The notes beneath the pieces were generated by a model, which worked only from the letters and a program-made list of their open reading frames with translations, was not told where the DNA came from and made no database searches. From contig JAICKM010000037.1 of NCBI GenBank assembly GCA_025927935.1, positions 1 through 18,265 of the forward strand: a stretch of 18,265 nucleotides of DNA. The letters run 5' to 3'. This DNA comes from Chloroflexia bacterium. Lineage in GTDB: Bacteria; Chloroflexota; Chloroflexia; QHBQ01; JADMIH01. This document shows, in pieces, positions 479 through 18,229 of this stretch. The position numbers and the translations under genes were made by a program. The stretch's first letter is position 1. Every line of letters starts with the position of its first letter.

Positions 479-2086
479 TTACTCGCCAGCCGCCCCGCCG
501 CCCTGCCACTGGCTCAGGCGGATAATCACAAACTCGGCGGGCTTCACCGGGGCGATCCCGATTTCCACGATCAGTTGGCCGACATCGCGGACCTCGACCG
601 GGTTGTTCTCCGCATCGCACTTGACGTAGAACGCCTCGCTCGCCGTGTTACCGAAGAGCGCGCCGTCGCGCCAGGTGCGCACCAGGAAGGCCGAGATATC
701 GCGCTTGACGCGCTCCCACAGGTCCATGTCGTTCGGCTCGAAGACGACCCACTGCGTCCCGCGCTGCAACGACTCTTCTACATAGTTAAACAGCCGGCGC
801 ACGTTCAGGTAGCGCCACGCCGGGTCGCTGGAGAGGGTGCGCGCGCCCCAGACGCGGATGCCGCGACCGGGGAAGCTGCGGATGACGTTGATGCCCTCCG
901 GGTTCAAGATGGCCTGTTCCGAGGAGGTGGTCTGATATTCGAGGCCGATGCAGCCGGCGATCACCTCGTTGGCTGGAGCCTTGTGCACACCGCGTTGCGA
1001 GTCGCTGCGCGACCAGATACCGGCCATGTGGCCGCACGGGGGCACCATGATGCTGCCGCCGCTGACCGGATCGGCCACCTTGATCCACGGGTAATAGAGC
1101 GCGCCGTACTTGGAGTCGTAGTTGACTTCCTTCATGCGCCAGTCGCGGATCTGCTGCGGGGTCATGCCGGGCGGGCTGTCGAGGATGGCGACGCGGTTGC
1201 CCATGTTCTGGGCATGGTCGAGCATGGCCTGCTGCACGGCCTGCACGCCTTCCATGTTGACGCGCCCGGACTGGTAGAGGGCCATCAGGTCGGGGAAGCA
1301 GACGATCTTGGCATCTTCGGCCACTTCCAGGCCGTTGACGCCGCTGCGCTGGGCCGCATCGCCGACCAGCAGGTCGGTGCCGACGTTGGCCCGCTCGGCA
1401 GGCAGGGCGGACTCGACAGGCAGGCTGAGCGGATAGGCGCCCGGCAGGGGCATCCGGTCCACGGGGCTGCCCGGCATTTCGCGCTCGGCCACGCGGACCA
1501 GCTTGGACTCGGCGTTGACGACATCGGCCACGTTGCGCACGTTGCGGCCTTTGCGCAGGGTCACATTCTCGAAGCGCTCGGTCGTGTCGCCCTGTTTCAC
1601 CTGCAAAGTGAAGCTGTCGTCGGGGGGCGGCGGCTGGCCTTCGGTGGCGGCGGCGGGCAAGACATCGAGCTTGATCGCGCTGCCGGCCGATCCGGCCTCG
1701 CGGGCGGTGACTTCGAGGCCCATGGCCCCGCCGCCGATCTTGGCGGGCAGTTGGGCACTGGCGGTGGGCAACTGGCGCTGGGCGGCGCGGGATGCGTTGC
1801 CGTCGGCGGCGTCGACGTTGCCCAGGGGCAGGCGCGTCACATAGCAGGACGAACCGCCGTTATTGAAAAAGCCATACACGGCGTGGGCCAGGAACCCACC
1901 GGGGATGAAAGCGCCGAAAGTGTTGACGAACTGGGTCCAGTTGGCAATATAGCGAGGCTCGTTAATGGGTCCGCGTTCGGCAAACCCGACGAAGGCGGCG
2001 AGGGAAGTCCCGACGCCTTCAATGGGCTTGCTACCCTTGTCGACCTCCTCGACGTAAACGCCGGGGGTCAAGTAAGTCGTGGCCAT
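479..2086 (-). CDS. Contractile tail sheath protein
   Basis: Sheath subunit of a contractile injection system; polymerises around the tube and contracts to drive it through a target membrane. At 535 aa it has the N-terminal PGVYVEE strand, a variable middle part (about residues 100-260, with a run of four prolines, possibly surface exposed), and the conserved C-terminal half: PPCGHMAGIWSRSDSQRGVH, then NPEGINVIRSFPGRGIRVWG, ARTLSSDPAWRYLNVRRL and a final GQLIVEIGIAPVKPAEFVII. The start at 2086 (MATTYLTPGVY) was chosen over an in-frame ATG 18 nt upstream because ggaaaggaac lies just ahead of it and sheath proteins begin this way. The gene sits 66 bp downstream of the DUF4255 gene and 28 bp upstream of the tube gene. 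It could belong to a prophage tail, but the flanking DUF4255 gene favours an extracellular or cytoplasmic injection system. Confidence 0.95.
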   Translation of the reverse strand: MATTYLTPGVYVEEVDKGSKPIEGVGTSLAAFVGFAERGPINEPRYIANWTQFVNTFGAFIPGGFLAHAVYGFFNNGGSSCYVTRLPLGNVDAADGNASRAAQRQLPTASAQLPAKIGGGAMGLEVTAREAGSAGSAIKLDVLPAAATEGQPPPPDDSFTLQVKQGDTTERFENVTLRKGRNVRNVADVVNAESKLVRVAEREMPGSPVDRMPLPGAYPLSLPVESALPAERANVGTDLLVGDAAQRSGVNGLEVAEDAKIVCFPDLMALYQSGRVNMEGVQAVQQAMLDHAQNMGNRVAILDSPPGMTPQQIRDWRMKEVNYDSKYGALYYPWIKVADPVSGGSIMVPPCGHMAGIWSRSDSQRGVHKAPANEVIAGCIGLEYQTTSSEQAILNPEGINVIRSFPGRGIRVWGARTLSSDPAWRYLNVRRLFNYVEESLQRGTQWVVFEPNDMDLWERVKRDISAFLVRTWRDGALFGNTASEAFYVKCDAENNPVEVRDVGQLIVEIGIAPVKPAEFVIIRLSQWQGGGAAGE

Positions 2087-2152
2087 GAATGTTCCTTTCC
2101 GCATTGGCTAGCACTACTGATCAGGGTTCTTACGCGCAATCGCCTATTCGCG

Positions 2153-3124
2153 TCACCTCCTTCGACTTTTGCCGGTGGCTGGCGGAGCCGGGGGCGGCCC
2201 GGCCTCGTCGCTAGGCGCGGTGGGAAGGGGTCCCACCGGGCCGCTGGGGGCCGCAGGCGCACCGGGATCGGGCAGCACAAGGTCGTACCCCGCGCCCGGC
2301 ACCTCGATGGTGCGCTCGGCCTGGGCCGTCGCTGTCGTGGCGCGCAGCGTATAGCGCCCCCGTGGCACGCGATCAAAGGCGAAGCGCCCCGCCGCGTCAG
2401 TCAGCACCCGGAGGCCCCGTTCCACGAGGAGCACCTGCGCGCCGGGCACCACGGCGTCGGATTCGGCGCCTTGGCGCACCCACCCGCCGAACTGCACCGT
2501 GGGTAGCTCGTCCGGGGGTGAGTCGCCGGTGCCCAGCCGGGTCCGCATCCGGCGCGTCAGCACCAAGGGGACCTCGGCCACCCATTCGGGATCGAGCGGC
2601 AGCGTGACCACATAGTGGAACCCGGCCCGGATGGGGCCTTCCATGCTGCTCCAGAAGTCGGAGGGGTTCTTAATCGGGCCGTCGGGCTGCGCCGTCTTGG
2701 TGGGGAACGGCCATTCCTGGCCCACCAGGCTGCCCTTGAGGTATTCGACCGGGATGGTGTTGTAGCGCATGAGGGCGCCGATCACACGCCAGAGGAGCCG
2801 GTGCTCGTCTTCGGGCGCATTGGCCCAGGCGGTGACCATATAGCAGGCGTCCAACCGGAAGGGCATGCGCCGCCGGGTGACGCCCGGCACCTCGCGGGAT
2901 GTGCCGTTGCGGCGCCCGCCCAGATTGCGATCCAGTTCCCACTGATTATGGCGCAGATCCTGGTTCTCCACCAGGTGATAGAGGTAGCAGTTGACGGTGG
3001 GCCGGGCCAGCGACGCGCTCCACTCGGCGGTCGGCGCCTCGAACGCCACGTCGATCTCCGCGGTATCCAGCGGGACGCCCTTGACGAGCATTTCCTTGAT
3101 CGTTTCGTCTAGATCGGTTAGCAC
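2153..3124 (-). CDS. DUF4255 (Pvc16-like) tail cap protein with C-terminal regulatory-like beta domain
   Basis: First gene of the injection-system operon. Residues 1 to about 190 match the DUF4255/Pvc16 N-terminal family: DLDETIKEML at the start, RPTVNCYLYHLVENQ, DLRHNQWE, RLDACYMVTAWA, EDEHRLLWRVIGALMRY and an IRAGFHYVVTLPLD strand. In known systems this protein caps the end of the sheath-tube particle. Residues about 208-285 form a small beta-sandwich of the carboxypeptidase-regulatory type (VVPGAQVLLVE, TDAAGRFAFDRVPRGRYTLRA). The last 35-40 residues are Pro/Ala rich and end in basic GKSRRR, probably disordered. The start is GTG at 3124, with GGAG eight bases upstream; VLTDLDETI is the expected family N-terminus. 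Length 323 aa. What the beta domain does is unknown; an adhesive or structural decoration is possible. Confidence 0.88.
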   Translation of the reverse strand: MLTDLDETIKEMLVKGVPLDTAEIDVAFEAPTAEWSASLARPTVNCYLYHLVENQDLRHNQWELDRNLGGRRNGTSREVPGVTRRRMPFRLDACYMVTAWANAPEDEHRLLWRVIGALMRYNTIPVEYLKGSLVGQEWPFPTKTAQPDGPIKNPSDFWSSMEGPIRAGFHYVVTLPLDPEWVAEVPLVLTRRMRTRLGTGDSPPDELPTVQFGGWVRQGAESDAVVPGAQVLLVERGLRVLTDAAGRFAFDRVPRGRYTLRATTATAQAERTIEVPGAGYDLVLPDPGAPAAPSGPVGPLPTAPSDEAGPPPAPPATGKSRRR

Positions 3125-9478: not shown

Positions 9479-9502
9479 TGACCGGCAAAGGAGAGGACGA
9501 AA

Positions 9503-10057
9503 ATGGCAGCGAATGCAGCGGGGATCGCCCCGGTGGTCGTCTATTCGACCCAGACCTGACCCTGGTGTGTCAAGGCGAAGGAGTTTCTTTCGCGTCGTGG
9601 CGTACCCTATATCGAGAAAGATGTCTCGCACGACCGGCAAGCGGCGATGGAGATGATCCGGCTGTCGGGCCAGCAAGGCGTACCGGTGATCGCCGTGGAT
9701 GACCAGGTGGTGGTCGGGTTTAACCGGCCCCGCTTGGAGCAATTACTGGCCCAGCGGACTACCACCGCGCCGGGCGGGCGCAAATCGCTGGGCGCGCGGG
9801 TGGCCGACGCGGCAACCATCGCCCTGCGGCGGCCCGGCATCCCGACCAGCGGCGCCTATATCGGCGGCGTGCGCCCCGGCAGTCCGGCGGAAGCGGCGGG
9901 CCTGCGGGCCGGCGATGTGATCGTCAGCGTGAACGGCACGCCCATCACCAACGCCGCCGGCCTGGAAGCCGCGCTGAGCCAGGCACCCGCCGGCAGCCGA
10001 GTCCCGATCAGCTACCAGCGCGACGGCACCACGCACCCGGTGACCGTGGCGCTGTAG
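9503..10057 (+). CDS. Probable selenocysteine glutaredoxin fused to a PDZ domain (TGA recoded at 9557-9559)
   Basis: Read through one in-frame TGA, this gives a 184-aa protein. Residues 9-85 are a glutaredoxin: VVVYSTQT, then U19-P20-W21-C22, then VKAKEFLSRRGVPYIEKDVS, the cis-proline loop GVPVI (59-63) and VVVGFNRPRLEQLL. The TGA falls exactly at the first Cys of the CPxC motif, and the frame stays glutaredoxin-like on both sides. Residues about 95-182 are a PDZ domain of the HtrA type (SGAYIGGVRPGSPAEAAGLR, AGDVIVSVNG). The ATG has aaaggagagga upstream. Expected role: thiol/selenol redox chemistry on a partner bound through PDZ, in the cytoplasm (no signal peptide). A hairpin at 9564-9606 fits a SECIS element. 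Alternatives are a TGC-to-TGA error or a nonsense mutation; internal initiation at 9647 would lose the redox motif. Glutaredoxins with Sec are known in other bacteria; use of Sec by this organism is inference. Confidence 0.75.
9564..9606 (+). promoter_or_regulatory. Candidate bacterial SECIS hairpin
   Basis: Starts 5 nt after the TGA and pairs almost continuously. GGUGUG (9564-9569) pairs with CGUACC (9601-9606, two wobbles); U9570-C-A pairs with U9598-G-G (one wobble); A9573/G9597 is a mismatch; G9574 pairs with C9596; G9594-U9595 bulge. GCGAAG (9575-9580) then pairs with 9587-9593, with one U bulged. The apical loop GAGUUU (9581-9586) begins with G and starts 21 nt after the TGA. Bacterial SECIS elements have the loop about 16-37 nt from UGA with a G in its first two positions, so both criteria are met. 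The hairpin lies inside the coding sequence, as bacterial ones do. Confidence 0.65.
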
Positions 10058-10071
10058 CCACTCGCCCCGGC

Positions 10072-10206
10072 TTGTCACTGCTGAACGCAGTGAAGAGTCT
10101 CGTCTCGTTGCCAACCGCGACGGAGATTCTTCGCGCCGCTCAGAATGACCAGGACAAGGGTGCCCTCCAGGTTGTCACTCTGAACGCAGTGAAGAGTCTC
10201 GTCTCG
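10072..10206. repeat. Direct and inverted copies of a short intergenic repeat
   Basis: Two direct copies, 10072-10107 and 10172-10206, are identical except for one extra base in the first (both contain ctgaacgcagtgaagagtct). Between them, 10123-10149 is an inverted, diverged copy, matching the reverse complement of the second copy at 21 of 27 positions. The 10058-10381 gap between convergent genes is thus almost wholly repeats. No coding potential is seen. This looks like a small REP/MITE-type element without its own transposase. Confidence 0.7.
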
Positions 10207-10228: not shown

Positions 10229-10272
10229 TGTTGCGCTCCGCAGGTGGTCGTAGACTACTGGCCGGGATGCGC

Positions 10273-10297
10273 GGGCCGGTTTGAAACCGGCCCCTAC
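10273..10297. repeat. Palindromic repeat, copy 1
   Basis: Perfect palindrome with arms GGGCCGGTTT / AAACCGGCCC around a single central G, followed by CCTAC. The same unit recurs at 10328-10352 and 15790-15814. It can fold as a strong hairpin on either strand. Confidence 0.85.
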
Positions 10298-10327
10298 AGC
10301 GGCCTGATGCGTTGGAGCGGGTGCCAC

Positions 10328-10352
10328 GGGCCGGTTTCAAACCGGCCCCTAC
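10328..10352. repeat. Palindromic repeat, copy 2
   Basis: Same 25-bp unit as at 10273-10297 but with a central C (GGGCCGGTTT-C-AAACCGGCCC, then CCTAC). It begins 31 bp after copy 1 and ends 29 bp from the stop codon of the ornithine carbamoyltransferase gene. It may act as a transcript-end hairpin for that gene. Confidence 0.85.
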
Positions 10353-10381
10353 ATCGCAATCGCCGGCGTAGGGCCGCCGGA

Positions 10382-11311
10382 TCAGATCAGCAGGGCGAGG
10401 ACGGCCTTCTGGGCGTGGAGGCGGTTTTCGGCCTCGTCGAAGACCAGGGAACGCGGGCCGTCGATCACCTCGTCGGTGATCTCCTCGCCACGGTGGGCGG
10501 GCAGGCAGTGCATGACCAGGGTCTCCGGCCCGGCTTTTTCCAGCAGCGCCGTGTTGACCTGATAAGGGCGGAAAATGGGGCGGCGCGTCTCGGCTTCGGC
10601 CTCCTGGCCCATGCTGGCCCAGGTGTCGGTGAAGATGACATCGGCCCCCGCAACGGCGGCGGGGTCGCGGCTGAATGCCAGGCGCGCGCCGGTGGCCCGC
10701 GCGGCGGTCTCGGCCAGGGCGCGATATTTGGGCTGCACGTCGAAGCCTTCGGGCGTGATCACCGTCATGTGGATACCCATTTTGGCCGCGCCGATCATCA
10801 GCGAGTGGGTGACGTTGTTGCCGTCACCGATCCAGACGATGTGCAGGCCCTCCAGCCGGTTGCGCTTCTCCCAGATAGTCAGCAGGTCGGCCAGGATCTG
10901 GCAGGGGTGCTCCTCGTCGCTGAGGCCGTTGATCACCGGCACGCCCGCGTACTTCGCCAGGTCGTCGATCTTGGCCTGCTCGAAGGTGCGCGCCATGATG
11001 CCGTCGACCATGCGGCCCAGCACGCGGGCCACGTCGGCCACGCTCTCGCGCTTGCCCAGGCCGATGTCGTTGGGGCCAAGGTAGAGCGCGTGGCCGCCCA
11101 GTTGGGTCATGCCCACCTCGAACGAGACGCGGGTGCGCGCCGAGGGCTTCTCGAAGATCATCGCCAGGCTTTTGCCGGCGAGCACCGGGTGGGGCTGGCC
11201 GGTCTTCACCTTCAGCTTCAGGTCGCGGGCCAGCTCCAAAATCCGCCAGATTTCCTCGGTTGCCAGGTCGTTGATCGAGGTGATGCAACGGCCTTTCATG
11301 CTCACTGCCAT
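10382..11311 (-). CDS. argF: Ornithine carbamoyltransferase
   Basis: Transfers carbamoyl between carbamoyl phosphate and ornithine/citrulline. At 309 aa it has every family motif: carbamoyl-phosphate loop S57-A-R-T-R61 in FEKPSARTRVSFE, HPCQ at 135-138, DGNNVTHS, TDTWASMGQE (ornithine-binding SMG loop) and HCLPAHRGEEI near the C-terminus. Catabolic (ArcB) and anabolic (ArgF) forms share these motifs. Its position as last gene behind arcA and arcC suggests it runs in the catabolic direction, splitting citrulline to feed carbamate kinase, although an anabolic role is equally possible. The ATG at 11311 has aaggag 12 nt upstream, a slightly long spacing; a GTG and an ATG a few codons in are weaker. 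It is separated from the YciI gene by 156 bp containing a perfect hairpin, so it may be expressed partly on its own. Confidence 0.93.
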   Translation of the reverse strand: MAVSMKGRCITSINDLATEEIWRILELARDLKLKVKTGQPHPVLAGKSLAMIFEKPSARTRVSFEVGMTQLGGHALYLGPNDIGLGKRESVADVARVLGRMVDGIMARTFEQAKIDDLAKYAGVPVINGLSDEEHPCQILADLLTIWEKRNRLEGLHIVWIGDGNNVTHSLMIGAAKMGIHMTVITPEGFDVQPKYRALAETAARATGARLAFSRDPAAVAGADVIFTDTWASMGQEAEAETRRPIFRPYQVNTALLEKAGPETLVMHCLPAHRGEEITDEVIDGPRSLVFDEAENRLHAQKAVLALLI

Positions 11312-11346
11312 GCTGTTATTGCGCTCCTTCTATGTGTCGAGTGACA

Positions 11347-11366
11347 GCGTTCGCTCCCGCGAACGC
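11347..11366 (-). other. Perfect hairpin between yciI-like gene and argF
   Basis: GCGTTCGC (11347-11354) and GCGAACGC (11359-11366) with a TCCC loop. On the minus strand it follows tataaacatatatcc and precedes the argF ribosome site by about 20 nt, so it could be a leader structure, a processing site or an operator. No U-run follows, so it is not a standard terminator. Confidence 0.45.
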
Positions 11367-11467
11367 GGATATATGTTTATAGCCAGCCGCATCCTGGCGC
11401 CCGCCGGGCGGACCCACGGGTCCACCCCTGCGCCGCCTTCCCACATCCGATGGCACGCGGGCGGGCG

Positions 11468-11767
11468 CTACTCGCCCGCGATCCAGTCTTGCAGGAAGGG
11501 CTGGAACTTGGTTGGACCGAATTCGACGAAGCGGTAATTGCCCATGCCCGCGATGCGGTAGGGGTCGCCGGCGAAGAACATCTCCAACGCTTCCTGCGAT
11601 TCGGCGCGGGCCAGGATGAGGCCACTCGCGGGCGGCACCTGGCGACCCGAATAGAGCAGGAGGCCGCTGTCATAGCCCTGCTGCAAGAACGCCCGGTGCT
11701 CCGGCGTGACTTTGTCGATCTCCTCCAGGGGCGCCTGATAGGTGATTTCAACAAGAAAGTGCTTCAT
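11468..11767 (-). CDS. YciI-like (YCII-related) protein
   Basis: Small 99-residue protein of the ferredoxin-like alpha/beta dimeric-barrel fold. MKHFLVEITY is the first strand, then PEHRAFLQQGYDSGLLLYSG and PPASGLILARAES, and the DPY motif in FFAGDPYRIAGM near residue 68. The conserved His (EHRAF) and Asp (DPY) of the family are present; their catalytic role is only proposed for relatives. The family's biochemical role is mostly unknown. The gene has an excellent ribosome site (aaggaggagacaccg). It lies 34 bp behind carbamate kinase, inside the arginine deiminase cluster, hence probably cotranscribed; a function tied to arginine or carbamoyl phosphate metabolism is a guess from position only. 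Confidence 0.85.
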   Translation of the reverse strand: MKHFLVEITYQAPLEEIDKVTPEHRAFLQQGYDSGLLLYSGRQVPPASGLILARAESQEALEMFFAGDPYRIAGMGNYRFVEFGPTKFQPFLQDWIAGE

Positions 11768-11782
11768 CGGTGTCTCCTCCTT

Positions 11783-11808
11783 ACTCCCTTACTCCACTCC
11801 CTTACTCC
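11783..11808. repeat. Tandem 13-bp repeat at the arcC/yciI junction
   Basis: ACTCCCTTACTCC occurs twice head to tail (11783-11795, 11796-11808). On the coding strand it reads GGAGTAAGGGAGT twice. The first unit carries the arcC stop codon and both supply purine-rich, ribosome-site-like sequence ahead of the YciI gene. Confidence 0.8.
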
Positions 11809-12764
11809 GCGGTGATCACGGTGCCGGTCTCGCCCGCCAGGGCCGGCAGCGCGCTGAACAGTTGCGTGATAATGGCCTGGCGGCCGCCGCTCTCGACAAA
11901 GTTGACGGCGGCCTGGACCTTCGGCCCCATGCTGCCGCGGGCGAAATAGCCGTCCGTGAGGTAGCGCCGGGCCTCGGCGACGGTCAGATGGGCCAGGTCC
12001 ACCTGGTCGGGCTTTTTGTAGTTGAGCGCGACCTTCTCCACATCGGTCAGTATCAGCAAGCGCGAGGCCCCCACCTGCTGGGCAAGAAACGCCCCGGCCA
12101 AATCCTTGTCGATCACCGCCTCGACGCCGACCAGCGTGCCGTCCGGCTCCTGCACCACGGGGATGCCCCCACCCCCGGCGGCGACCACCAGCATACCGTC
12201 GTTGACCATCGTGCAGATGGCGTCGATCTCGGCGATGGCGCGCGGCTGCGGGGAGGCGACGACGCGCCGCCAGCCCCGGCCGCTGTCCTCGACCAGGCGC
12301 ATCCCCGCATAGCGCATGCGCTGGGCGTCGTCGCTGTTGTAGAAGGGGCCGACCGGCTTCGACGGGTTCTCGAACGCCGGGTCGTCGCGGTCCACGATCA
12401 CCTGGGTGATCACGGTGGCGATGCGTGTGGCCGCCGGGTGGTTGCGGCGCAGCAGGGCGTTGCGCAGCGATTGCTGGATCATGTAGCCGATCCAGCCCTG
12501 GGTCATGGCCCCGGCCACATCCATCGGCATGGCCGGCACCTGCGCGGCGCCCGCCGCCTGCTGGATGAGCAGGTTGCCCACCTGCGGCCCGTTGCCGTGG
12601 GTGACGACCACGCGGTAGCCCCTGAGAACCAGTTCGGCCACGGCTTCGGCGGCGCGCTGCACGTTGCGGAATTGTTCGGTGCTGGTGCCCTGCTCGCCCG
12701 CCGCTTTGATGGCGTTGCCGCCGAGGGCGATCACCAGCGTTTCAGTGGGGGCCTGCTCTATCAT
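11802..12764 (-). CDS. arcC: Carbamate kinase
   Basis: Final step of the arginine deiminase pathway: carbamoyl phosphate plus ADP gives ATP, CO2 and ammonia. At 320 aa it is normal for the family. Amino-acid kinase motifs in order: VIALGGNAI at 12-20, VVTHGNGPQVGNLL near 56-69, PMDVAGAMTQGWIGY, SPQPRAI, the glycine-rich AAGGGGIPVV near 200, EAVIDKDLAGAFLA, LLILTDVEKV and the C-terminal GSMGPKVQAAVNFVE. The start at 12764 (MIEQAPTETLVIALGG) was chosen over an in-frame upstream ATG because GATGAGGAG directly precedes it and homologues begin close to the first strand. It follows the arcA stop by 43 bp. The upstream frame, whose extra residues (MRCSPVRST) look random, is discounted. Confidence 0.95.
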   Translation of the reverse strand: MIEQAPTETLVIALGGNAIKAAGEQGTSTEQFRNVQRAAEAVAELVLRGYRVVVTHGNGPQVGNLLIQQAAGAAQVPAMPMDVAGAMTQGWIGYMIQQSLRNALLRRNHPAATRIATVITQVIVDRDDPAFENPSKPVGPFYNSDDAQRMRYAGMRLVEDSGRGWRRVVASPQPRAIAEIDAICTMVNDGMLVVAAGGGGIPVVQEPDGTLVGVEAVIDKDLAGAFLAQQVGASRLLILTDVEKVALNYKKPDQVDLAHLTVAEARRYLTDGYFARGSMGPKVQAAVNFVESGGRQAIITQLFSALPALAGETGTVITAE

Positions 12765-12807
12765 AAACTCCTCATCGCGGGGCAGCACAGCCGTGGACCG
12801 CACGGGA

Positions 12808-14190
12808 CTACATCTCATAGGGCGCGCGCTCCAGAGGCATGGTCATACAGCGCGGACCGCCGCGGGCGCGCGACAGTTCCAACCCGCTAATCTGGATCGC
12901 ATACTTGCGTTCGGGGTGGTCGCGGATCTCGGTGATGAGCGGGATGTTCTCGTGCCAGTAGCCGCCACCCTCGGCGGTCGCGTCCGGTTCCCAGCGCACC
13001 AGGTCTTCCTGGCGGCAGATCTGGTACCCGGCGGCCTGCAGGGCGCCGAAGGTCTGCTCGTTGCGCTCGTAGACCATGATCAGGCCGGGGCGCAAGGCAA
13101 AGGCGTTCGCGCCGTCGGTCCACTGCTCGCGATCCTGGTAGAGCCGGCTGCGGCCCCCGCAGGGGATGGCGTGGATCGGGTGGCCTAGCTCCGATTGCAG
13201 GCACGCGATGAGTGAGCGGTGCTCCGGTTCGGCGCGCAGCACGCCGCGCACATCGCGGCTGAGGCGCACGATGCCGACCTGCTCGCCGCCGCCGGGCAAG
13301 ATGAGCGGCGGGTAGACCAGGCACTCGTCACGGCTGAGGAAGGTGAAGATGGTGTCGAGGTGCATGGTGCTGCGCTGCTTGGGCATGATCACGGCGTAGA
13401 TGGTGCGCACCGGGCTGCCCCGGCGGCGCAACTCGCGGGCCAGCATGTCGATGCCCTCGTTCGAGGTGCGCTCGCTGGCCCCGACCAGCAGCAGATCGGG
13501 CCGCACCACCAGGATGTCGCCACCCTCTACCGTATACGGGTCGTGCCCGCCCCCGGCCCGCAACTGGCGGATCTGCTCGCTTTGCAGGCGGTCGAACCAC
13601 AGCGGCGGCTCCGCGCCCGCCTCGGCGAACATGGGGTGATGGGTGAAGATGTAGCGCATCAACAACGGTTCGCGTCGCCGGGCCGCCCGCGCCATCTGCG
13701 CCAGCACGACGCCCGCGCCGACTATCACCGCGGGGTCGCGCATGAACATCATATTGGGAGTGGGGGCCAGCGTGTAGGGATAGGTGTCGAGCGCACCGGC
13801 CAGGCTGCCGCCGGCTTTCGGCTTCTCCCACCCGATCAGCAGCCGCCCGGCGAGGGCGTCCGGCTCCTCGGCCAGCAGGCGGTAACGCACTTCGTCGCTC
13901 AGTCCTTCGAGCGCGCACACGTCGTCGATAATCTGGCGCCGCACCAGTTCGTCGGCCAGGATCTCGTGCAGCAGATCGAGCACTTCAAGGACGCCGCCGG
14001 GCGGGGTGACGATACTCATCAGCCGGCGGAAGGCGTCGTGTTCGCGTTGGGCCAGGTCGAGATAAAGGATATCGTCGAAGAGCAACTGCTGGCGCATGCC
14101 GGGCGTCATGCGGCGGATCTCGTCGCCGGGCCGGTGCAAGAGGATCTTACGCAGCGACCCGATTTCCGAGGTGACACTCAGCCCGCTCAT
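12808..14190 (-). CDS. arcA: Arginine deiminase, catalytic set intact
   Basis: Hydrolyses arginine to citrulline and ammonia. At 460 aa it is somewhat longer than typical deiminases (about 400-420). The guanidine-modifying catalytic residues, by homology to studied deiminases, are all there: Asp152 in FMRDP, Glu222 in VEGGDILV, His277 and Asp279 in STMHLDTIF, and the nucleophile Cys448 in LSRARGGPRCMTMPLER (codon TGT at 12847-12849). The N-terminus SEIGSLRKILLHRPGDE is classic. Its ATG overlaps the TGA of the upstream paralogue (ATGA), so the two are translationally coupled and probably made in matched amounts. With arcC and argF downstream it completes the pathway. No arginine/ornithine antiporter gene is present in the window. 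Confidence 0.95.
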   Translation of the reverse strand: MSGLSVTSEIGSLRKILLHRPGDEIRRMTPGMRQQLLFDDILYLDLAQREHDAFRRLMSIVTPPGGVLEVLDLLHEILADELVRRQIIDDVCALEGLSDEVRYRLLAEEPDALAGRLLIGWEKPKAGGSLAGALDTYPYTLAPTPNMMFMRDPAVIVGAGVVLAQMARAARRREPLLMRYIFTHHPMFAEAGAEPPLWFDRLQSEQIRQLRAGGGHDPYTVEGGDILVVRPDLLLVGASERTSNEGIDMLARELRRRGSPVRTIYAVIMPKQRSTMHLDTIFTFLSRDECLVYPPLILPGGGEQVGIVRLSRDVRGVLRAEPEHRSLIACLQSELGHPIHAIPCGGRSRLYQDREQWTDGANAFALRPGLIMVYERNEQTFGALQAAGYQICRQEDLVRWEPDATAEGGGYWHENIPLITEIRDHPERKYAIQISGLELSRARGGPRCMTMPLERAPYEM

Positions 14191-15746
14191 GCCGGGCCTC
14201 CGCTGCGCAGCAGGGGCAGGACCAGGCTATGCGGCCCGCCGTGCCCGCGCGAGAGTTCGGAGCCGCGGACACGCAGCACCCATTTGCCGGGTTCGTCCAG
14301 GCCGAGATTACGACCATCGGCCAGCACGGCGTTGATGTCGATCACCTCGTACCCGGCCGCCGCCAGCGCGGCGACCGTGCGGTCGGTGCTGCGGTAGGTG
14401 ATGACTTTGCCCGGCGCGACGGCCAGCAGGTTGGCCCCGCTGAACCATTCCTCACGCTCCTGGTCGATGGGATCGTCGCCGCCGCAGAAAATAGGCGTCA
14501 GGTCGAGGCCGTCGTCGCGCAGGCTGTGGATGAACGACGAGCGGCGCTCCGGTTCCACGCCGCCCTGGCCTAACTCCATGCGGATCACATCGACCGACGC
14601 CGGCCCGTAGGGCATGAAAACGGGCCGGTACATCACGCACTCGCTGGGGCTGATCAGGCTGAACACGGAGTCGATGTGGTTATGGGCCGGCGGCAGGCGC
14701 AGCACGTAGAGGATCAGGCGCTGGCCTGCCGCCATGGCCGCGGCTTCCCAGGCGCCGGCCAGCCGCTGCACGGCGGGCATGGTCGTGCGCGGGCTGACCC
14801 CCACCACCAGCAGATCTGCGCGCAACTGGAGGACGTTGCCGCCCTCCAGATACGCGGCGTGGGCCGGGTAGAGTCCCGTGCGCGCCTCCGGTACATGCTG
14901 TAGCTCCGGCTCTTCCCAGTAGGGCCGCTCGTCGGCGTTGGCGGTGCGCGGCCCCGCGGGCCAGCGGCCCACGTCCGCGAAACGCGGGTGGCAGGCGGTG
15001 AGGAAGTCCAGCAGGAGGGTTTCGCGCCGCCGGGCGAACGCGGCCATGCGGCTCAGCACCACGCGGTCGCGCACGATGGCGGCGGCGTCATGGAGGAACA
15101 TCAGGTTGGGCAGCGGCGTCAGGTGAAACAGGCGAGCTTCGACAAAGCGCGACAGGCGGTCTTCGTCCTCCAGCAGGTCGAGCTTTTCCAGTTCCGGGGT
15201 CGCAAAATCGCCGGCCAGGCCGGGATTATTCGCCTCGATGCCTTCGATCAGCGTGGCGGCAAGCACGGCAAACGCGCCGTCATTCGCCAGGTGTTGCAGA
15301 TGCTCTTCAAGGTAGCCCCGGCGCCGGTCGGCGGGCGTGGCAATCCGGGCGAACCGCGCGGGCGCCCGGCCCCCCTGCAACCGCTCCAGGTCGGCCCTTA
15401 CGGCGGCGAGTTCCTCCTCCAGCCGGGCCAGGCGCTGCTCGGAGGGCTGCGGCTCGGCCTGGATCAGGGCCGTGCGCTCCAGCAGCGTATCCAGATCCTG
15501 CGGCTGGGCCGCCTCCAGCGCCTCGGTGAGCATCTGGTGGAAGTAGTGCAGCTTAATGCCCAGGTGTTCGCCCAGCACGGCGGTGAACCAGTCGTGCTCC
15601 ATCTGGGCGTGGCGGGTATACAGGAGATCGTCGAAGAGGAAATGATCGCGCGAGTCGGGCGTCATGCGCATCAATTCACGACCGGGACGATGAACGATCA
15701 CCTCGCGCAGGGGATCGATTTCCGTAAAGACGTTGACGTTCGCCAT
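14187..15746 (-). CDS. Arginine deiminase-like protein lacking the catalytic cysteine
   Basis: A 519-aa paralogue of the arginine deiminase encoded directly downstream. The family frame is clear: EIDPLREVIVHRPGRELMRMTP at the N-terminus, LTPLPNLMFLHD (Asp220), YLEGGNVL (Glu301, with Asn304 where arcA has Asp225), HNHIDSVFSLISPSECV (His357, Asp359) and VRGSELSRGHGGPHSLVLPL. The nucleophile position is Ser507 instead of Cys (codon AGC at 14226-14228), and the RDP motif is HDA. An insert at about residues 85-150 includes a heptad-like charged helix (EQRLARLEEELAAVRADLERL), a possible coiled coil. Established knowledge: deiminases of this fold depend on the Cys, so normal arginine hydrolysis is not expected. 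It may bind arginine and regulate or assemble with ArcA, or have a new activity. The gene is intact and overlaps arcA by 4 nt, so it is not a decaying copy. GACGGAG lies four bases before the ATG. Confidence 0.87.
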   Translation of the reverse strand: MANVNVFTEIDPLREVIVHRPGRELMRMTPDSRDHFLFDDLLYTRHAQMEHDWFTAVLGEHLGIKLHYFHQMLTEALEAAQPQDLDTLLERTALIQAEPQPSEQRLARLEEELAAVRADLERLQGGRAPARFARIATPADRRRGYLEEHLQHLANDGAFAVLAATLIEGIEANNPGLAGDFATPELEKLDLLEDEDRLSRFVEARLFHLTPLPNLMFLHDAAAIVRDRVVLSRMAAFARRRETLLLDFLTACHPRFADVGRWPAGPRTANADERPYWEEPELQHVPEARTGLYPAHAAYLEGGNVLQLRADLLVVGVSPRTTMPAVQRLAGAWEAAAMAAGQRLILYVLRLPPAHNHIDSVFSLISPSECVMYRPVFMPYGPASVDVIRMELGQGGVEPERRSSFIHSLRDDGLDLTPIFCGGDDPIDQEREEWFSGANLLAVAPGKVITYRSTDRTVAALAAAGYEVIDINAVLADGRNLGLDEPGKWVLRVRGSELSRGHGGPHSLVLPLLRSGGPA

Positions 15747-15789
15747 TGAACTCCGTCTTTTCTAGCGTCAGCTTAGAGCGACCGGACGC

Positions 15790-15814
15790 GGGCCGGTTTC
15801 AAACCGGCCCCTAC
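15790..15814. repeat. Palindromic repeat, copy 3
   Basis: Identical to the unit at 10328-10352 (arms GGGCCGGTTT / AAACCGGCCC, central C, then CCTAC). It sits in the 161-bp gap between argS and the deiminase-like gene. On the minus strand it supplies TTGAAA, which could pass for a -35 hexamer, but no good -10 follows. The rest of the gap holds only a weak possible hairpin near 15866-15891. Confidence 0.85.
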
Positions 15815-15907
15815 GGGTAGCAGATGGTTGCGGTGGATTACCGGCATACGCAAGCGCGGACGAGCACCCTCCTCGGCTGGAGACGGAGTGCCCGACCGCG
15901 CGGGCAA

Positions 15908-18229
15908 TTACATCACGTCGGGCGCGGCGATGCCGAGCAGGCCCAGGCCGTTGGCGATGGTCTGCCGGGCGGCGGCGGCCAGCACCAGGCGCGACCGGCG
16001 TAACGCGGGCGTCTCGGCAGTCAAGATGCGCGAGGTGTCCCAGAACTTGTTGAACGCCTCGGCCAACTCAAACAGGTAGCGAGTCAGGATGACCGGGTTA
16101 TAGAGCGATGCCGCGCGCTGGATCTCGTCCGGGTAGCGGCTGATCATGTCGAGCAGGTTCAGTTCGCTGTTCAGGCTGATCACCCGGCGCTTGTTGGGAT
16201 CCCGGTCGTCGGCGTCCTTCAGATGGACCAGCAGATCGAGGTCCGCCTCGGCGAGTTGCAGGCGCGTGAAATCGACCGGCCCGGCGGCAAGATCCACCGA
16301 TAAGTCCTCTTCCTCGGCTTTCGCCAGGACGCTGCTGGCCCGCGCATGGGCATACATGATGTACGGCGCGCTCTGCTGGCGCGGGTTGAGCGCCTGCTCC
16401 CAGTCGAACGCGATGTACGTGTTGTTATCCTTGTCGAGCATACTGTACTTCATGGCGCCGATGGCGATCATGCGGGCGACGGCATCTTTTTGCGCGTCGT
16501 CCATGCGCCGCCGGTCGGCTTCGGGCCGCCGCTCCTGGTTCTCGGCTTCGATGGTGTCGATTTCGGCCCGCGCCCGCTCGAACGCTTCGCGCTCAAAGTC
16601 TTCGTATAGGGGCATGTTGCCCTTGCGCGAAGAGAACGCGCCTTCCTTGGTGCCGACAATTTCGTGGCCGATCTGCTGGCACTTATCGGCCTGCGGGAAG
16701 CCGTACAGTTCCAGGACCTTGAAGATCTGCTGGAAGTAGAACGACTGGCGTACGTCGATCACGTAGAGCGAGCGCTCGACGTGGTAGTCCTCAAACTTGC
16801 GCCGGGCCAGGGCCAGGTCTTTGGTGGCGTACAGCGTCGTACCGTCGGAGCGCAGCACGATGAGCACCCGGTAGGGGTTCAGTTCGGTCAGCGAGCCGTC
16901 CTTGCTCTTGCGATAGAGCTTGTCGAAGTACTTCTCGCGCAGCGCCGGGTGCTTGCGTAATTGCTCGTCGATGCGCACCAGGACCGGATCGCCCTCCGCC
17001 CGCAGGTCTTCGGCGATACCCATTTTGACCAGTTCGCCGACGATCTCGCGGCCCTCGTCCTCCACCTGGCTCTCGTAAAACTCGACATCGAATCGCACAC
17101 CCAGCGTGCGGTAGACCTCGGCGAATTCGTCCAGGCTCCACTGCCGCGTGCGCGCCCACAGCGCCATGAGGCCCGGCTCTTTGGCCTCCCACTGGGCGAA
17201 GAGCGCGCGCACGTCGTCGCGCCAGGCGGGCGCGGCGTTCCACCAGTCGAAATGGGCATCCAGGCGATCATAGTCGGCGCGCAGGGCGCTCTCCGCAGGC
17301 AGCAGGGTGCCCAGGGCGTGCCACAGGGCGGCGATGACAGCCGGATTGATGCTGCTCAGGTCCACGTCCGCGCCCAGGGTTTCGTCCGGCTCGTGCGCCG
17401 TTTCGGGGTCGGTATCCGACCCGGCGGCGGCGACCGCTTGCAGCAGGAGTTGCACGTCGGCGGCAGCCGCGCTGTCGCTCTCGCCGTGGGCGCGCAGCCA
17501 GGCGGTCAGGTCCGGCCCCAGGGCCGGGGCCTCTTTAGAGGCAGCCAGCGCCTGCGACAGCAGACCGAGCAGGTGCTTGCGGTATTCGAGGCGCGCGTCG
17601 GCCTCGGCGTAAATCGCGCCGAGCCAGCGGCCCCGGCCCGTCGCGGGTTCGTCGCCCTGGTGGAACGTCAGGTAGCACCAGAGACACTTGATGACGTGCA
17701 TGCCGATGTCGCCGGAGTAGGTCGCGGCCAGCACGTTCCACCCGGCGGCGCGCATGGTGCGCACGACGGAGTCGCCCAGGGCAATATTGCGCAGGTGGCC
17801 GACATGGAGCGCCTTGTGCGTATTCGGCTGCGCGAACTCGACCATCACCTGCTCGTTCTTCGGGACGCCGTGGCCCCATTCGAGACCCCGCGTGGCGACC
17901 TCAGCCACCAGCCCGTTGGCATACGCGGGGATATCGACATAGAAGTTCACGAAGCCGCGCAGGGCTTCCGTCTGCTGCACCATGGGCAGCGCGGGCAAGG
18001 CGGCGACCACCTGCTCGGCCAGTTGCTGCGCGCCGTCCGGCCCGCGGCCCAGCGACTTGCAGACCGCGCTGGCGTAGCCCCAGCGCCCCTCCAGGGGCAC
18101 CCGCCGCACCTCCAGCGCCTTCGCCTTCGGCTCATACCCCAGACGGCGCAACGTGGTCTCCAGGGTGTCGCGTAGAATCGCAGCCAGGTCTAAGACGCTG
18201 CCGTTCAGCAGCGTGTTCGGTGTATCCAC
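15908..18229 (-). CDS. argS: Arginyl-tRNA synthetase with a large insertion
   Basis: Charges tRNA-Arg with arginine. Class I landmarks: an N-terminal additional domain (about 10-115), HIGH motif H142-V-G-H145-LRN preceded by VEFAQPNTHKALHVG, LYATKDLALARRKFEDY near 466-482, IGHEIVGTKEGAFSSRKGN at 520-538 (the KMSKS-equivalent), SAPYIMYAHARASSV and a C-terminal DALR anticodon-binding helical domain (about 640-773). The 773 aa exceed the usual 550-600. The excess is an Ala/Asp-rich segment at roughly 215-345, between YSGDIGMHVIK and the AKEPGLMALWARTRQWSLDEF block where ordinary enzymes have a short connection. The start is GTG at 18229 with an ideal aaaggagg six bases before it. It stands first in the run of arginine genes; its promoter must lie beyond the window's right edge. 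Confidence 0.95.
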   Translation of the reverse strand: MDTPNTLLNGSVLDLAAILRDTLETTLRRLGYEPKAKALEVRRVPLEGRWGYASAVCKSLGRGPDGAQQLAEQVVAALPALPMVQQTEALRGFVNFYVDIPAYANGLVAEVATRGLEWGHGVPKNEQVMVEFAQPNTHKALHVGHLRNIALGDSVVRTMRAAGWNVLAATYSGDIGMHVIKCLWCYLTFHQGDEPATGRGRWLGAIYAEADARLEYRKHLLGLLSQALAASKEAPALGPDLTAWLRAHGESDSAAAADVQLLLQAVAAAGSDTDPETAHEPDETLGADVDLSSINPAVIAALWHALGTLLPAESALRADYDRLDAHFDWWNAAPAWRDDVRALFAQWEAKEPGLMALWARTRQWSLDEFAEVYRTLGVRFDVEFYESQVEDEGREIVGELVKMGIAEDLRAEGDPVLVRIDEQLRKHPALREKYFDKLYRKSKDGSLTELNPYRVLIVLRSDGTTLYATKDLALARRKFEDYHVERSLYVIDVRQSFYFQQIFKVLELYGFPQADKCQQIGHEIVGTKEGAFSSRKGNMPLYEDFEREAFERARAEIDTIEAENQERRPEADRRRMDDAQKDAVARMIAIGAMKYSMLDKDNNTYIAFDWEQALNPRQQSAPYIMYAHARASSVLAKAEEEDLSVDLAAGPVDFTRLQLAEADLDLLVHLKDADDRDPNKRRVISLNSELNLLDMISRYPDEIQRAASLYNPVILTRYLFELAEAFNKFWDTSRILTAETPALRRSRLVLAAAARQTIANGLGLLGIAAPDVM

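Follow-up and report, generated by a model that had tools for sequence, protein, structure and literature searches.

Background

Bacteria insert selenocysteine (Sec) by means of a hairpin lying 3' of the UGA codon, in a process mediated by SelB. Glutaredoxins with Sec in a UxxC motif are already listed in PMC1794560, PMC9312934 and PMC13188914, as far as the accessible portions of these sources go; those of PMC1794560 give examples from Geobacter, Alkaliphilus and Moorella, while reference titles in PMC13188914 include a Sec glutaredoxin of Clostridium oremlandii, and the same source describes the hairpin after the UGA as directing Sec insertion via SelB. The gene described here lies in an 18,265-nucleotide stretch of Chloroflexota DNA (hereinafter the window, meaning the whole stretch analysed) and resembles these proteins in possessing a glutaredoxin domain (Grx; PF00462), a predicted Sec at the first Cys of the CxxC motif and a SECIS-type hairpin after the UGA. 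It differs from them in a C-terminal PDZ domain, a fusion absent from the glutaredoxin accounts of PMC1794560 and PMC13188914 in their accessible portions. In the main texts of PMC9312934 and PMC13188914, to the same extent, PDZ is mentioned once each, in connection with another, CxxU, protein, and a search of the literature conducted mostly by title and abstract opening, with few subscription journals, recovered no PDZ-fused Sec glutaredoxin.

Among the NCBIfam models, that of the Uxx-star proteins (NF041212) shares with the window's protein the glutaredoxin-like domain and, judging by the model name, the placement of Sec, but it spans 70 positions and lacks a PDZ domain; the window's protein scores 64.4 bits against it (with Cys substituted for Sec), just short of the cut-off of 66, which a Cys-containing relative (P0015) passes with 67.1 bits. 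The Trx7/PDZ (seleno)protein model (NF041199) likewise combines a redox domain with a PDZ domain in a selenoprotein; however, its redox domain is a different one with Sec at the opposite end of the motif (CxxU, according to the accessible part of PMC13188914), and the window's protein attains only 41.7 bits against a cut-off of 300, with the best stretch in the PDZ part. The best NCBIfam match of the glutaredoxin domain is GlrX_YruB (TIGR02196; 86.4 bits, below the cut-off of 88.55), and by sequence this part of the protein appears nearest to the YruB type. The usual members of GlrX_YruB have Cys. The Sec glutaredoxin domain is therefore known, as the term '(seleno)protein' in the name of the Uxx-star model attests, and the PDZ fusion is an added architecture. 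On balance, we favor the view that the gene represents an unlisted family of PDZ-targeted seleno-glutaredoxins, which is frequent in Chloroflexota, is shortened in many database records and has undergone many exchanges between Sec and Cys, with the hairpin kept alongside Sec and lost alongside Cys, so giving natural Sec/Cys pairs. If this is true, the bacterial selenoproteome gains a domain architecture.

The gene and its domains

Translation from the first ATG of the gene (Table 1) reads MAANAAGIAPVVVYSTQT, TGA, PWCVKAKEFLSRR and continues to a TAG at 10055-10057. The original prediction had claimed such a frame, interrupted at the position of the catalytic Cys, and this was borne out, as the TGA at codon 19 is the only interruption. 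The read-through product has 184 residues and a computed mass of 19.0 kDa if Sec is replaced by Cys. The Pfam glutaredoxin match runs across the TGA with 66.7 bits (cut-off 22.9). The C-terminal PDZ domain and the hairpin were both absent from the original prediction. Taking the evidence given below together, it is highly probable, judging from comparative sequence data, that this is a selenoprotein gene with Sec coded by the UGA at codon 19.

Table 1. Coordinates of the glutaredoxin-PDZ gene and its features in the window
Feature	Position	Strand	Basis or detail
Shine-Dalgarno-like AAAGGAG	9487..9493	+	9 nt upstream of ATG 9503, from sequence
Grx-PDZ gene	9503..10057	+	184 codons, UGA read as Sec (predicted), TAG stop
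Glutaredoxin domain, residues 11-70	9533..9712	+	Pfam PF00462, E 2.1e-18
UGA codon at first catalytic Cys position (predicted Sec19)	9557..9559	+	sequence, alignment of relatives
TGT, Cys22, second Cys of U-P-W-C, putative resolving residue	9566..9568	+	sequence, UGA rows
SECIS-type hairpin	9575..9593	+	8-bp stem 9575-9582/9586-9593, apical loop GUU 9583-9585
Internal ATG, start of the standard 136-aa ORF call	9647..9649	+	ORF list, database relatives
PDZ domain, residues 97-184	9791..10054	+	Pfam PDZ_2, E 2.6e-15

An AlphaFold2 model built from 51 sequences has a mean pLDDT of 88.9 over the whole protein and a pTM of 0.55, the latter value making the relative placement of the two domains unsure. 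DegP/DegQ proteases head the 50 Foldseek matches listed, with TM-scores of 0.38-0.48 on the query. A profile search of solved structures recovered DegP-type PDZ chains, aligning to positions 72-171 of 172, along with glutaredoxins (best 7c10 with 86.5 bits; also 4tr0).

Given the single in-frame TGA, one could invoke a general change of the code, by which TGA would specify Trp or another residue throughout the genome, but beyond this codon nothing points to such a change. As had been stated for the neighbors, TGA is an ordinary stop in the window: it ends four of the 14 ORFs checked, including one deiminase gene and the Pvc16_N gene, which we take to be the one previously referred to as DUF4255, and TGG is used in all 14. 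Moreover, the site aligns with Cys rather than Trp in relatives, leaving a genome-wide reassignment with a practically negligible probability.

Distribution of UGA and Cys codons among relatives

We surveyed 400 genomes of Chloroflexota (the phylum of UBA6077), 99 of which contained a match at a threshold of 1e-12. Both domains are covered by the 40 best: 31 have exactly one TGA, in every case at the codon that aligns at the DNA level with the TGA of the window, eight have no stop and TGC or TGT at the site, and one has TGT at the site with a TAG elsewhere. Thus, the relatives' DNA confirms that TGA alternates with Cys codons precisely where the catalytic Cys is expected. Lower in the list come eight weaker matches of two-domain length (27-32% identity) with no stop inside; should they truly belong to the family, the UGA share would be smaller. 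The loci read at the DNA level, with the window added and eight duplicates removed, form a first set with 39 UGA rows (32 Grx-PDZ and seven Grx alone), 28 Cys rows (nine and 19, respectively) and two other rows. As 20 loci of this set were picked for carrying a stop, the ratio of 39 to 28 is no frequency, unlike the 31 of 40 above. By record title, five of the seven UGA rows with Grx alone belong to Bacillota, Clostridiales, Terriglobia, Nitrospirae and Rokuibacteriota. A second set comprised 28 further, partly interrelated, rows from the class of genome G259 (18 UGA and 10 Cys), so that 97 rows were read in all, 57 with UGA and 38 with Cys. A Cys three residues after the site is present in all 57 UGA rows. 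A scan of viral contigs found no relative, and we found none with a readable genome at more than about 60% identity.

These data bear on the possibility that the TGA is a nonsense mutation in a pseudogene or a base error for a true TGC or TGT. The Cys codons of the homologues are indeed only one base away from it; yet TGA occurs at the site in 57 rows from many separate assemblies, a recurrence that argues against a base error, and neither TAA nor TAG, the other stops for which a check had been proposed, is seen there in any of the 97 rows. Further, the reading frame is undisturbed before and after the codon, and the downstream protein is retained at 82-93% identity in the 11 nearest relatives that are called from the internal ATG. 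Together with the behavior of the hairpin discussed below, this renders a pseudogene or base error exceedingly improbable.

The two other rows of the first set are L090, misaligned by the script and by eye carrying a TGA two codons on, and L094, with Ser at the site. L090 and L092 (from genomes G176 and G088), the latter of which yielded no row in the alignment, are glutaredoxin-like genes in which YTQGSG is followed by an in-frame TGA; they probably represent a further Sec form whose loop is slightly longer. L094 is a glutaredoxin relative with SAEG in place of CxxC, which by its sequence apparently lacks a redox motif.

A SECIS-type hairpin downstream of the UGA

The bacterial SECIS rules given in the accessible part of PMC13188914 specify a loop of 3-9 nt with a G in its first two positions, a stem of 4-16 bp, a distance of 16-37 nt from the UGA and a minimum free energy of at most -7.5 kcal/mol. 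The window's hairpin conforms to all of these: it has a 3-nt GUU loop and an 8-bp stem, lies 23 nt past the UGA and has -8.3 kcal/mol when folded alone. To compare relatives we used a rule that asks for a G at the loop start and for at least six pairs at the corresponding position, whichever of two registers is used; it holds for 39 of 39 UGA rows versus none of the 28 Cys rows in the first set. As this rule had been set after inspecting that set, it was applied unchanged to the 28 further rows, where it again holds for all UGA rows (18 of 18) versus one of the 10 Cys rows, giving 57 of 57 versus one of 38 overall. This association of the full-rule hairpin with TGA, and its absence from all Cys rows but one, is a further point against a degraded or misread Cys codon. 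Part of this difference is due to the loop G, since on pairing alone, with no G required, eight of the 38 Cys rows pass (4/28 and 4/10).

Across the 39 UGA rows 85.9% of the stem cells are paired versus 79.8% in shuffled alignments, and 26 cells are changed on both sides versus 7.9, a count as high being reached in none of 500 shuffles. The covariation score is 0.225 versus 0.127 for shuffled alignments and at most 0.179 for slid registers, while four of the 500 shuffles attained the observed count of doubly changed pairs and 18 that of pair types; these shuffles ignore the relatedness among rows. Every slid register is lower in both score and paired cells than the hairpin structure, but in pair types the +2 register has 10 versus nine for the structure, such that the slide wins on this measure. 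An example of the exchanges is pair 20-36, which is U-A in 13 rows and C-G in 12. In seven of the 39 UGA rows the loop has 4 nt and the pairing is offset by one column; leaving these out, 95.3% of the cells are paired in the other 32.

When the window's codons were shuffled synonymously, none of 200 sequences gave a qualifying hairpin as stable as its own; for certain other UGA rows an equally good one arose more readily (L003 in 53, L048 in 61 and L081 in 97 of 200). The best-scoring hairpin lies at a spacing of 22-23 in 37 of the 39 UGA rows and elsewhere in L057 and L081. Some qualifying hairpin at another spacing is found in 12 of the 28 Cys rows, with L063 reaching -8.2, and none in the other 16. 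Against plain dinucleotide shuffles the hairpin region did not stand out (z of -1.09, -1.05 and -0.33 for three lengths), and a search of the window with Rfam at gathering scores recovered nothing.

Selenocysteine machinery in genomes with relatives

In the first set, 31 genomes code for a Grx-PDZ protein with UGA, and one or more of selA, selB, selD and tRNA-Sec occur in each. Individually, selA scores over its cut-off in 30 (the exception being G036), selB is present in 27 (not in G036, G009, G128 and G002), tRNA-Sec at 65 bits or more in 26 (not in G120, G009, G128, G002 and G232), and selD in 25 (not in G026, G176, G088, G009, G002 and G232). The threshold of 65 bits was adopted because the RNA family's cut-off of 47 was also passed in five of 14 control genomes and, in several genomes of this set, by second matches. 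The assemblies of G002 and G009 measure 1.1 Mb and 1.6 Mb. The genomes with Cys forms of Grx-PDZ in the first set have both selA and selB in nine of nine cases, and selB is found in 306 of the 400 Chloroflexota genomes. Being so common in the phylum, selB in the hosts discriminates only weakly, and we set its presence aside as proof of Sec: the machinery makes Sec possible and alone does not decide the residue. Combined with the site and the co-varying SECIS-type hairpin, its occurrence in genomes with the UGA form upholds the earlier reading of the gene as a probable selenoprotein.

The selD gene itself has one TGA in 24 of its 25 carriers among the UGA Grx-PDZ genomes and, over all genomes searched for it, one internal TGA in 31 of the 33 matched places; it is thus probably a selenoprotein gene in its own right. 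According to the accessible portions of PMC4918011 and PMC13390414, Dehalogenimonas has sel genes and a Sec-containing formate dehydrogenase, and the former source reports its selenophosphate synthase as a further Sec protein; the word glutaredoxin does not occur in the main texts of the two sources to that extent.

Shortened database records and phylogeny

A search of protein databases found 677 relatives, and among the 120 listed 85 have the CxxC motif and 35 begin after the UxxC/CxxC motif. The prediction that gene callers would start this gene at the internal ATG agrees with both the window, where a 136-aa ORF begins there, and the database, where 11 of the 12 nearest proteins (P0002-P0013 without P0008) start at the Met of that ORF. 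Cys relatives, on the other hand, are called in full from the start corresponding to the first ATG. Hence, the active site appears, from these protein sequences, to have been lost from many database records through gene finders stopping at the UGA, and we infer that the genes behind the shortened records carry UGA; for the window's closest relatives the missing motif is seen at the level of protein records. Some of these records are on short contigs, while P0116 is on one of 289,527 bases.

The starts of these 11 records could also be taken at face value, with the functional protein being the 136-aa, mostly PDZ, product of the internal ATG and the upstream glutaredoxin region a relic. Against this, the upstream region fits the family profile across UxxC, a ribosome-binding-like site precedes the first ATG, the Cys relatives are called in full, and a caller halting at the UGA yields identical short records. 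Accordingly, we consider an internal start very improbable and retain the full-length glutaredoxin-PDZ reading.

A tree was computed from 121 rows (41 for the loci including the window, 45 of the 85 full-length proteins and all 35 shortened ones) with the site residue left out. The window sits in a set of 33 rows, the other 32 of which are shortened records (support 92/88), and the smaller sets around it, of 31, 22, 12 and three rows, are starred. Scoring Cys versus all other states requires 11 changes on the best tree, at least six of them forced by starred branches, and Sec and Cys alone require 10; the tree is unrooted, and the changes are counted without regard to direction. Close mixed pairs are L055 with Sec and L051 with Cys, and L061 with Sec and P0050 with Cys. 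If the family is as proposed, Sec/Cys pairs such as L055/L051 would allow the reason for selenium use to be tested, and near-related Sec and Cys forms in hosts with the Sec machinery offer a way to ask what benefit selenium confers on a glutaredoxin. It would also mean that a set of database proteins is probably cut off at the active site.

Proposed mechanism and function

What the comparison establishes at the sequence level is the UGA site together with its hairpin, the two domains and, in relatives, the Sec machinery. For the organism of the window we propose that Sec is inserted at codon 19 because the GUU-loop hairpin 23 nt beyond the UGA offers a binding place to SelB loaded with Sec-tRNA(Sec). 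Sec19, as a selenolate, would then attack disulfides or selenenylsulfides, with Cys22 resolving the intermediate and an electron donor presumably serving the protein; such a redox role is likely. A PDZ domain in a redox protein suggests that particular clients are targeted; with somewhat less assurance, we propose that it binds client or partner proteins by their C-terminal tails, holding these close to the active site.

An alternative function, compatible with Sec coding, is that the Sec serves as a ligand for a metal or metalloid instead of participating in glutaredoxin-type redox chemistry. We retain it because PMC13188914, in its accessible part, suggests that Sec may be a metal ligand in UXX-star selenoproteins, and the window's glutaredoxin domain comes near the cut-off of the corresponding model. 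It is nevertheless unlikely, given that the resolving Cys is retained in every UGA row and the relatives have CxxC like redox glutaredoxins, with no metal-resistance gene recognised beside the gene and no widely shared neighbor in relatives.

Gene neighborhood and other features of the window

Both genes flanking the Grx-PDZ gene are on the opposite strand. Among the relatives' loci, examined over at most 2.5 kb per side (about 300 bases per side for nine loci), there is no widely shared neighbor; neighbor clusters of seven, five and four loci all fall inside a single near-relative group, and there is one more of three. With opposite-strand neighbors and none widely shared, the context provides no partner for the protein.

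Immediately 3' of the gene a repeat, CTGAACGCAGTGAAGAGTCTCGTCTCG, occurs at 10081 and 10180, and three copies of another repeat, built around a GGGCCGGTTTCAAACCGGCCC-type palindrome, lie in the regions 10263-10356 and 15780-15818. On the minus strand, 10382-18229 is occupied by an arginine deiminase pathway cluster with genes for an ornithine carbamoyltransferase, a YCII protein, an amino-acid kinase (by context, carbamate kinase), two adjacent deiminases and an arginyl-tRNA synthetase. The last of these (15908-18229, minus strand; 773 aa) seems divergent, having a match at 1e-50 in only three of the 49 genomes with glutaredoxin relatives. At the other end of the window, a phage-type tail sheath gene recognised by Pfam adjoins the Pvc16_N gene (479-3124, minus strand); pairs of this kind occur in contractile injection systems.
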